Source of the DNA: Polynucleobacter sp. MWH-HuK1
GTDB taxonomy: Bacteria; Pseudomonadota; Gammaproteobacteria; Burkholderiales; Burkholderiaceae
Length of the DNA: 64,000 nt
Direction of reading: 5' to 3'
NCBI RefSeq assembly: GCF_018881815.1
Contig: NZ_JACVPP010000001.1
Span: forward strand, 1,171,097 to 1,235,096
The notes below the pieces were generated by a model that was given only the letters and a program-made list of their open reading frames with translations, had not been told where the DNA came from and made no database searches. How positions within the stretch are numbered: position 1 is the stretch's first letter; every line of letters starts with the position of its first letter. Made by a program: the position numbers and the translations under genes. Positions 21,666-53,070 of this stretch are shown piece after piece.

Positions 21666-23357
21666 TTAGATTTTTAAATCCAAGTCCGTCACCGCACCTT
21701 TGCTAGCGCTGCTCGCCAAACTTGCATATTTAGCCAATAAGCCGCGGGTATAACGTGGCTTAGGCTGTTTCCAGGCTGCGCGACGCTTTGCAATCTCGGC
21801 TTCATCTACATTAAGTTGAATCAGCAATTTGTGAGCATCGATTGTTACTGAGTCACCTTCATTGATGAGGGCAATCGTGCCGCCCACATAAGCTTCAGGA
21901 GCTACGTGGCCAACTACCATGCCCCATGTGCCACCAGAGAAACGGCCATCGGTAATAAGACCTACAGACTCGCCTAAACCTTGGCCAACGAGGGCAGATG
22001 TGGGGGCGAGCATTTCACGCATACCGGGACCGCCTTTAGGGCCTTCGTAACGAATGACAACCACGTCACCATCTTTGATCTTCTGCGCCATGATGGCTGC
22101 CATAGCATCATCTTCGGAATCAAAGACGCGTGCTGGACCAGTGATGGACGGGTTCTTCAATCCGGTAATCTTAGCAACGCAACCCTCGGGAGAGATATTT
22201 CCTTTGAGAATTGCCAAGTGACCTTGTTTATACAAAGGATTATCTAAGGTGCGAATGACTTTCTGATCAGCGCGAGGGACTGATGGCACATCTTTCAATG
22301 TTTCAGCAATGGTTTTACCAGTGATTGTCATGCAATCGCCGTGAAGCAATCCTCCATCGAGCAAAATCTTCATCACTTGTGGAATACCACCGGCTTGATG
22401 CAAATCAGTAGCTAAGTAAGTGCCAGATGGTTTCATATCCACGATTACTGGAACGCGCTTACGAATGCGTTCGAAGTCATCAATGGTCCAGTCGATTTCA
22501 GCAGCGCTAGTAATGGCCAAGAAATGCAATACCGCATTGGTAGAGCCACCAACAGCCATGATGACACTTACAGCGTTCTCAATAGACTTTTTAGTGATGA
22601 TGTCGCGTGGACGCAGGTTATTTTTGACTGCTTCAACTAAAACACGCGCTGATTCAGCTGCGCTGGCAACCTTTTCAGCATCAACGTTAGCCATCGTAGA
22701 AGAGTAGGGAAGGCTCATGCCCAGTGCTTCAAATGAAGAACTCATGGTGTTCGCTGTATACATGCCACCACAGGAGCCGCTGCCCGGACAAGCGTGCTGC
22801 TCAACGCCTTTTAAATCTTCCTCACTGAGTCGGCCAGAGGTAAATTCGCCAACTGCTTCAAATGCAGAAACAATATTGAGCTCTTTGCCTTTGTAATGGC
22901 CTGGCTTAATAGTGCCGCCATAAACATAAATACCAGGAACGTTGGTGCGAGCTAAAGCCATCATGCCACCTGGCATATTTTTATCGCAACCACCAATCAC
23001 AACTACACCGTCTTGCCAAAGGCCATTGACACAAACTTCAATACTGTCGGCAATGACTTCGCGTGAGACGAGGGAGTATTTCATACCCTCAGTACCCATA
23101 CCGATACCATCAGAAACTGTTGGCGTACCAAACAATTGTGCTTTTGCACCTGCTGCTTCGAGAGCTTCAACCGCAGCATCAGCTAATTTTTGCAAGCCAC
23201 TATTGCAAGGAGTAATGGTGGAATGCCCATTCGCAACGCCAACCATAGGCTTTACGAAATCCTTTTCTTCGTAACCCATTGCGTAATACATCGAACGATT
23301 AGGTGCGCGAGCAACCCCTTCGGTGACCATGCGCGAGCGTTCATTAAGGCGTTTCAT
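21666..23357 (-). CDS. ilvD: Dihydroxy-acid dehydratase
   Basis: Dehydrates 2,3-dihydroxy-isovalerate and its homologue to the 2-keto acids of valine, isoleucine and leucine synthesis. The 563 residues match the IlvD/Edd family. Iron-sulfur ligands are seen in GGCDKNMPG (near 123) and [16 protein letters not shown] (near 195), with the C-terminal [11 protein letters not shown] segment near 470. Length and motifs indicate the IlvD branch rather than 6-phosphogluconate dehydratase. The gene is monocistronic. Confidence 0.95.
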
Positions 23358-45130: not shown

Positions 45131-45348
45131 GCATTACTTTAAGTAACGCCTGGCGCATTCTTTAAAAGTGCTCTGGAGTAGCGAGGTATTGAGATCATTG
45201 CTCCAAAGCACTTTTTTTGAAATCCAATGGGTGAACTTGAGTTTCTTCTCCTCTTATCAAATTAGTCACACAAATACACGCACCGATATTTTGGAGGCGT
45301 AACCACACAAAATCCCAGTGTTTTTCTTTGGATTTCTGCTCTCATAAC
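45131..45348 (+). repeat. Diverged repeat, copy A
   Basis: About 218 bp resembling 52337-52558 over its length. Shared landmarks, in order, are the palindrome around TTACTT/AAGTAA at 45131-45149, a TGGAG...TTGCTCCA hairpin region, AAATTAGTCACACAAA, and TCTGCTCTCATAA at the end. No gene is supported in 45086-45503; the apparent reading frames there are in the repeat and lack RBS or family signals. Confidence 0.75.
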
Positions 45349-45370
45349 CCTTTGGTCCCAGGTTCAAGTC
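45349..45370 (+). pseudogene. Intron-less 3' scrap of the tRNA(CAU) gene
   Basis: 22 nt identical to 52969-52990 of the intron-bearing tRNA gene, covering part of the anticodon stem, variable loop and T-arm. After this the match decays (ATGACGGGCCACTA against CTGGTGGGCCCACCA). The 5' half and the intron are absent: repeat copy A joins directly to this scrap. Confidence 0.75.
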
Positions 45371-45503
45371 ATGACGGGCCACTAAGAAGCGCTTAAACCA
45401 TCTTCGGCTGATTTTATTATCTGCGACCGTCTCTTATGGGTCGGCAGCTGCCTAACGCTAGAAACTGGCCCAAAGTCTCATATCGGCCAATAAATGCCAT
45501 TGC

Positions 45504-52335: not shown

Positions 52336-52558
52336 CGAGCGTTACTTAAAGTAACGCTCGCAATGCTAATAAAAGAACCCTTTGGAGCAACGAAGTGTTA
52401 GATGGTTGCTCCAAAATCCTTTGGTTTTGAAAACCAAAGAGTGAACCAGCGTTTCTTGCGATCTCGTTAAATTAGTCACACAAACGCTTACACACCGATA
52501 ATCGTGCGGCGTAAGCTCTTGAAATCCTAGTGGTTTTCTTTGGATATCTGCTCTCATA
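52336..52558 (+). repeat. Diverged repeat, copy B, in front of the intron-bearing tRNA
   Basis: Starts with a 25-nt palindrome, arms CGAGCGTTACTT/AAGTAACGCTCG around one A (52336-52360), followed by a hairpin with 11-bp arms TTTGGAGCAAC/GTTGCTCCAAA (52381-52415). It parallels copy A at 45131. From 52559 to 52718 I see no gene; this includes whatever promoter drives the tRNA. Confidence 0.75.
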
Positions 52559-52718
52559 AGAGAGATAACCTCGTTGTATTTTGCTAAGAACCTAATAAAC
52601 ATAAGGGTCTTAGCGTGGTAAGGGTAGATAGGTTTGCTTACACACCGCTTACACACCGAGGCAAGTTGTAAAGCAGTAGTTTTAGCCCAGTTTTATCGGG
52701 TTAAAAAGTGTAGTTTTA

Positions 52719-53005
52719 GGGCCTATAGCTCAGTTGGTTAGAGCAGAGGACTCATGGCGTAAGTTGTGCCATATACGTGGAAACTGTATATGGGATGGTG
52801 TCAAATTCGGAGAAAGCTAAAGGTAGCCAAAAGCTGCACAAGCTAACGCCGAGCGAAGCTTAGTAGAAATACTTTGAACGTGTAGAGACTAGACGGCACC
52901 CATCTAAGTGCGCGAGCATATGATGAAGGCATAGTCCAGGGAGTAGTGAAAGCTACACAAACCGGAATCCTTTGGTCCCAGGTTCAAGTCCTGGTGGGCC
53001 CACCA
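52719..53005 (+). tRNA. tRNA(CAU), probably tRNA-Ile2, interrupted by a group I intron
   Basis: Exon 1 is 52719-52755 and exon 2 is 52966-53005. Joined they give a 77-nt tRNA with encoded CCA: acceptor GGGCCTA/TGGGCCC (one G-T), D-arm GCTC/GAGC, anticodon stem GAGGA/TCCTT around CTCATAA, T-arm CCAGG-TTCAAGT-CCTGG. The anticodon CAU fits lysidine-modified tRNA-Ile2 or elongator Met; exon resemblance to tRNA-Ile2 and the intron type favour Ile2. A terminator follows at 53011. Confidence 0.9.
52756..52965 (+). ncRNA. Self-splicing group I intron of the Azoarcus tRNA-Ile type
   Basis: A 210-nt insertion directly after the anticodon. It contains the core blocks of the Azoarcus tRNA-Ile intron: GGGATGGTGTCAAATTCGG (52792-52810), AACGCCGAGC, the P7-region GTAGAGACTAGACGGCACC (from 52882), GCATAGTCCAGGGAG (52929-52943) and the 3' end ACACAAACCGG with terminal omega-G at 52965. 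The exon end CAT can pair with the internal guide GTG at 52766-52768, with the conserved T-G pair at the splice site. There is no internal reading frame, so it is ribozyme only. Confidence 0.93.
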
Positions 53006-53049: not shown

Positions 53050-53070
53050 AGCGTTACTTAAAGTAACGCT
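53050..53070. repeat. Third copy of the GCGTTACTT palindrome
   Basis: AGCGTTACTT-A-AAGTAACGCT, the same palindrome as at 52336 and a one-mismatch version of 45131. It is followed at about 53076 by CTGCTAT-CGGCCA-ATAGCAG, another 7-bp inverted repeat. Confidence 0.8.

Follow-up and report, generated by a model that had tools for sequence, protein, structure and literature searches.

In our analysis, the intron-bearing tRNA-Ile2(CAU) gene of the window (the whole stretch of 64,000 nucleotides that was analysed) is probably the replacement tRNA of an integrative element, in which a group I intron shields the gene against insertion of its own element and of sibling elements. On the wider proposal that self-splicing ribozymes provide site immunity to bacterial elements that sever the sole tRNA-Ile2 of their host, with two introns at two positions of one 7-bp core, our confidence is evenly balanced. 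The intron itself is of a known kind, an Azoarcus-type group I intron in tRNA-Ile2. The initial annotation, borne out in part, had recognised it and missed the main point: the gene is an island-end replacement tRNA, and the island destroys the native gene at the same loop.

Exon 1 (52719-52755, plus strand) ends in the anticodon CAT (..GAGGACTCAT), the 210-nt intron occupies 52756-52965 (plus strand) and ends in CACAAACCGG, and exon 2 (52966-53005, plus strand) runs from AATCCTTTGG to an encoded CCA (..CCACCA), giving a gene that reads GGGCCTATAGCTCAGTTGGTTAGAGCAGAGGACTCAT, 210 nt and AATCCTTTGGTCCCAGGTTCAAGTCCTGGTGGGCCCACCA. The intron lies directly 3' of the anticodon and splits the core of the loop as CTCAT|AA (position 36/37). 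No tRNA was found by ARAGORN in the unspliced 52719-53005 stretch and the joined exons gave a 77-base CAU tRNA (labelled Met from its anticodon), just as had been claimed for a tRNA readable only after removal of these 210 nt. The Rfam group I model RF00028 matched 52751-52958 across its full length with an E-value of 1.6e-11; the score of 49.2 bits is 0.8 bits below the gathering score of 50, so that a default Rfam scan misses the intron and the Rfam check proposed earlier succeeded by E-value and narrowly failed by score. The introns of three sibling copies scored 51.7, 57.4 and 65.4 bits, above that limit.

Single-sequence thermodynamic folding of the intron gave no significant signal (z -0.93), and the evidence for its fold is therefore covariation. 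Among 76 distinct related introns gathered, 39 were aligned, and 26 of the 54 pairs of the RNAalifold structure, in which no pseudoknot is predicted, show two-sided pair-keeping changes in at least one aligned intron. The complementary P7 strands GACTA (52887-52891) and TAGTC (52932-52936), both on the plus strand, are invariant in the 39 introns; the P7 region and the Azoarcus-type class named in the initial annotation are thus confirmed, and the window intron has a group I core fold with both covariation and P7. Exon 1 ends in U and the intron in G, and T10, G11, T12 and G13 are invariant in the alignment; by the group I pairing rule, the guide GUG pairs with CAU. The absence of a homing endonuclease also held, as no listed open reading frame of at least 80 aa in the window overlaps the intron. 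The 76 introns look mosaic: different copies combine the variants of their peripheral helices in different ways, as if the cassettes often recombined with one another. The same intron core was also observed after CAT in a different tRNA (..GGTTAGAGCAATCGACTCAT) on three IMG/VR contigs (L222, L224 and L226).

The Polynucleobacter genome of the window (2.17 Mb, 100% complete by estimate) was found to hold four group I intron matches to RF00028, every one inside a tRNA-Ile2 gene, at C1:770176-770463, C1:797102-797390, C1:1223815-1224101 (the window copy) and, on the minus strand, C1:1966871-1967154. The gene is hence not the sole tRNA-Ile2 gene that had been supposed; the suggested genome search did turn up further copies, three in number, all of them intron-bearing, and no intronless full-length tRNA-Ile2 match was found in this genome. 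ARAGORN read CAU at two of the 37 RF00005 matches, which by their sequence encode the elongator and initiator Met tRNAs, and the CAU tRNA of the joined exons is distinct from both. A TilS gene is present (TIGR02432, 200.9 bits, C1:1607350-1607916), and AUA is rare but used, with 61 of 12507 codons in 22 open reading frames of the window. Since all four tRNA-Ile2 copies carry the intron and none without it was found, AUA decoding in this genome should depend on splicing, which we infer from the sequence, and the earlier suggestion of a dependence on the ribozyme still follows. Truncated intron 3' ends with tRNA-Ile2 3' halves, apparently remnants of decayed elements, were also seen at G000:C2:19984-20131 and 22795-22861 and at C1:1435033-1435112.

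The anatomy of the island is well supported, and the split native gene, the cores and the junctions can be read directly in the DNA. Every copy in this genome belongs to an integrative element and lies some 160-190 bp in from its left end. At C1:769978-770016, directly behind an rpoD-like gene (named by its C-terminus), a tRNA-Ile2 5' half ends in CTCATAA and continues directly into GAGAGATAACC; the matching 3' half, preceded by TCTGCT-CTCATAA, lies at C1:830071-830108. Joined together, the two halves give a perfect 77-nt tRNA-Ile2, which is intact at 100% identity in 9 of 61 genomes among the matches listed. Both an unoccupied site and a split target are hence seen for the C1:770-830 kb island, as they are for that of a second genome, G038. 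In the window, the recombination core CTCATAA, the same 7 bp as the native anticodon loop, forms an attP-like junction at 52553-52559 (plus strand), followed by the element left end (GAGAGATAACCTCG.. up to the tRNA leader; 52560-52718, plus strand), which equals the left end joined to the lone native 5' half at C1:769978-770016.

In front of this core, at 52472-52552 (plus strand), lies a right-end arm (TTAGTCACACAAACGC..TTTGGATATCTGCT) that belongs to a neighbouring element. A further right-end arm at 45262-45347 (plus strand), with its core CTCATAA at 45341-45347, is joined to a degenerate tRNA-Ile2 3' half at 45348-45384 (plus strand, end approximate), an attR remnant. Two of the four copies (770 kb and 1967 kb) stand behind a lone tRNA 5' half, that of the 1967 kb copy not being at rpoD, and the other two (window and 797 kb) behind a right-end arm that meets a left end at CTCATAA, as expected between neighbouring elements. 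The window copy belongs to a rearranged array away from rpoD, with no lone 5' half, and no integrase gene was found near it in the window. An integrase gene lies downstream of two of the four copies. In one case, the element at C1:1967 kb, the cargo includes type I restriction genes, and the integrase of 452 aa, 8.6 kb downstream of the replacement gene, matches a PHROG integrase (E 3.4e-31) and received no name in a Pfam search at E 0.001. A simple tandem duplication of the tRNA was ruled out because the far ends have this core together with right-end arms and 3' halves. Copies of the palindrome GCGTTACTTAAAGTAACGC are found at many places in the islands; in the window they lie at 53051-53069 and 52339-52357, and elsewhere they flank, among others, the integrase genes at C1:799 kb and C1:1957 kb. 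The Polynucleobacter-1 RNA (RF01718), matched in 7 of 61 genomes, lies in this genome no more than about 2 kb from tyrosine recombinase genes (G000:C1:401229-401366 and 419563-419698).

From these features, the following course may be proposed. A tyrosine recombinase of about 450 aa would join the attP (TCTGCT-CTCATAA-GA[A/G]AGA) to the anticodon loop of the host tRNA-Ile2 behind the rpoD-like gene, leaving nonworking 5' and 3' halves, and the element would supply a full tRNA-Ile2 gene with its own leader near its left end. The group I intron of this replacement splits the 7-bp core, by which the integrase target would be lost from the DNA and kept in the RNA. The transcript would then mend itself by self-splicing, TilS would modify C34 and AUA would be read, so that the cassette may keep the host alive and also guard itself against its own and sibling elements. 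With its core broken up by the intron, the replacement should escape the integrase of its own element, and the intron probably prevents islands from cutting the replacement gene. Splicing, the activity and specificity of the integrase, and protection are what we infer from the anatomy; a protected replacement gene explains the sequence pattern best but is not proven.

In the survey of 61 Polynucleobacter genomes (G numbers; L numbers for loci), a full-length intronless tRNA-Ile2 match was found in at least 28 and a full-length intron-bearing match in 20, with 27 copies. Among the matches listed, 10 of the 17 single-contig genomes have an intact intronless gene and 6 have intron-bearing copies only; G031, also a single contig, has an intron-bearing copy and a damaged intronless one. 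RF00028 matches were present in 25 of 61 genomes, only part of the candidates being scored, and an rpoD-like end lies upstream in 36 of 40 loci. The simplest case is G038, where the element measures 3716 bp from core to core, the intron-bearing tRNA-Ile2 lies about 200 bp inside it and the flanking halves join exactly to the native 77-nt tRNA. Empty-site synteny was looked for through the gene adjoining the 3' half of the 770-830 kb island, which we take to be bactofilin-like; it was found at one (L152) of the 27 loci L129-L155, most with about 2 kb of downstream sequence, and in none of ten longer stretches (nine downstream of intact genes, one from G038). This weak synteny is taken to reflect other islands there.

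The replacement genes were counted through the left-end sequence and were hence not chosen by their intron. The search gave 42 pattern matches, and after 14 with two mismatches and one off-target match (G021) were dropped, 27 genuine left-end junctions were left, of which 4 are cut by contig ends and 23 are resolved. The intron lies at 36/37 in 17 of the resolved replacement genes and at 33/34 in 3, and the remaining 3 are intronless; at the native loci (behind rpoD, with no lone half), 21 genes are intronless and 3 carry an intron (G003, G023 and G025). A group I intron is thus present in 20 of 23 replacement genes versus 3 of 24 native ones (Fisher p 2.6e-7, uncorrected for relatedness). Left ends of other sequence stand outside this count (the C1:770 kb and window copies, G013, G026, G032, G040 and G043), and the native count omits G006 and G027, which have another type of element, G051 and the copy in G031, neither with a visible rpoD, and also G029 and G057. 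The leaders of the introns' host genes in G003 and G025 resemble replacement leaders, and these introns may lie in former replacement genes. Over all 65 junctions, 10 duplicates being skipped, the 36/37 intron was present at 50, a biased figure as most loci were found via the intron pattern.

The intron at 33/34 is of a second group I type, 245-250 nt long, and separates U33 from C34 in tRNA-Ile2 (CT|CATAA); it is carried by five loci (L168, L172, L173, L175 and L192 of G019, G043, G050, G025 and G001, respectively) with weak RF00028 scores of 31.3-33.2 bits in all five. Both positions, 36/37 and 33/34, break the 7-bp core. The cassette of G019 with the 33/34 intron and that of G050 with the 36/37 intron, 258 nt each, are 97.7% identical up to exon 1. 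Renewed splitting of a replacement was seen in one case: in P. sinensis (L054), a replacement gene with an element-type leader has been split again, and the replacement of the second element has the intron. The split gene was presumably intronless, as its half runs into CTCATAA.

Linked integrase genes were found in part of the elements. In eight genomes (G000 at its second copy, G007, G011, G016, G019, G031, G047 and G059), integrases 67-92% identical to the 452-aa protein lie 0.8-4.2 kb downstream of intron-bearing replacements; G005, G030, G038 and G050, all with intron-bearing replacements, gave no integrase match at E 1e-15. A further relative of the integrase is present in G009. In G026 and G032, whose elements have another left end, the integrase relative is at 39% identity. 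Against protection stand the 3 intronless genes among the 23 replacements; the one in G014 shares its island with an integrase of 90% identity, 6.7 kb downstream, and an intron can therefore be dispensed with. These three genes carry one common leader and perhaps form one lineage. RF01718 also occurs in the G014 island (L148, 4501-4641). Further, a different element was observed at the same loop in G006 and G027 (L153 and L154), with a 5' half behind rpoD and, 5.7 kb on, a complete intronless tRNA with the native leader, as if replacing the 5' half.

Outside the genus, a lone 5' half lies upstream in 8 of 28 intron loci, namely in Gulbenkiania, Sterolibacterium, Methylophilaceae, Massilia, Dechloromonas, Duganella and two MAGs whose name is less certain. 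At the other 20, no lone half was found within the 1.1 kb or less examined, and the intron sits in an apparently native gene or in surroundings of uncertain kind. A 290-bp stretch with the replacement tRNA is 98.6% identical between Gulbenkiania and Dechloromonas, compared with 86.1% for 600 bp upstream and about 60-64% for the cargo, which indicates that the cassette travels apart from its host; plasmid records gave no match over 80% of the cassette.

One alternative, in line with the initial annotation, is a plain Azoarcus-type intron in an unremarkable tRNA gene that has nothing to do with mobile elements; it agrees in class and site with the well-known Azoarcus case. This reading is already disfavoured by the junctions and is hardly tenable, given the attP-like junction about 160 bp upstream of the window tRNA, the linked integrases, and the right-end arms and lone 5' and 3' halves seen with other copies. 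A regulatory role, in which splicing delays or conditions the supply of tRNA-Ile2 and the element tunes AUA-rich cargo or host growth, would suit a codon as rare as AUA and a genome in which every tRNA-Ile2 found has the intron; the presence of two intron types in the same gene and the existence of intronless replacement genes speak against it, and we regard it as very improbable.

It is possible, and in our judgement rather unlikely, that the intron is a passive and neutral passenger, the tRNA-Ile2 having been captured from a donor that already had it, with any protection incidental. The same intron does occur in tRNA-Ile2 near rpoD-like genes of other betaproteobacteria with no lone half upstream (for example L056, L064, L085, L091, L118, L125 and L127); the three genus loci with no lone half and the 20 of 28 outside it show that the intron also lives without elements. 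Moreover, the cassette backbones that were compared agree at 82-99%, and many of the counts could go back to a single ancestral capture, and the replacement cassettes share ancestry, which means that the counts are not independent. The passenger reading is opposed by the enrichment in replacement genes, and also by the different intron at another loop position in the near-identical G019/G050 backbone, by which the presence of an intron appears to outlast its identity, unless recombination among cassettes has swapped the introns. On this balance, a replacement tRNA shielded by its ribozyme is still the reading that we prefer.

Classical tRNA-targeted islands use a tyrosine recombinase, a tRNA target and flanking repeats, and their attP carries an identical stretch of the tRNA by which the gene is made whole again. 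The Polynucleobacter elements are like these islands in recombinase, target and repeats; in contrast, they share a 7-bp core and bring a separate tRNA gene, whereas the elements of G006 and G027 at the same loop look mirrored-classical. The group I intron of the pre-tRNA-Ile(CAU) of Azoarcus sp. BH72 lies directly after the anticodon, has about 205-210 nt and no homing endonuclease. The window intron is alike in tRNA, site, length, core blocks and missing endonuclease, whereas the Polynucleobacter intron is carried by replacement genes that come with integrative elements, and a genome can have as many as four. Crystal structures of the Azoarcus pre-tRNA-Ile are noted in PMC3984707, and the word "integrase" is absent from that text. 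Tycheposons, as described in PMC10872708, are found in freshwater betaproteobacteria and are likewise islands that have a tyrosine recombinase and a tRNA; the word "intron" does not occur in that text.

In Caldiarchaeum, as described in PMC3293823, an element disrupted tRNA-Thr(GGU) and left a 5' fragment upstream of an intron-bearing tRNA, a likeness to our islands; its authors, building on the hypothesis of Randau and Soll 2008 as cited there, suggest that the intron could stop further invasion and state themselves that direct evidence is lacking. That case concerns an archaeal intron at 24/25 in one population, said to enter through attP (PMC3293823). The Polynucleobacter islands differ in being bacterial and spread over many species, in having a group I ribozyme at two intron positions, and in bringing a whole replacement gene with a leader of its own and a linked integrase. 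The archaeal protein-spliced intron type was considered and rejected, the host being bacterial and the intron group I. From what could be consulted, the archaeal case is the nearest precedent, the intron kind being known and its proposed use for island protection in bacteria new; by titles and the beginnings of abstracts, no bacterial case of this kind was found in the open literature.

Group I introns in tRNA genes are usually regarded as neutral passengers. In Polynucleobacter, both sides are visible, namely the integrase target and split native genes together with intron-bearing and intronless replacement genes, and these islands would offer a natural test of function for self-splicing introns, in a setting where an essential tRNA appears to have been handed to a mobile element.
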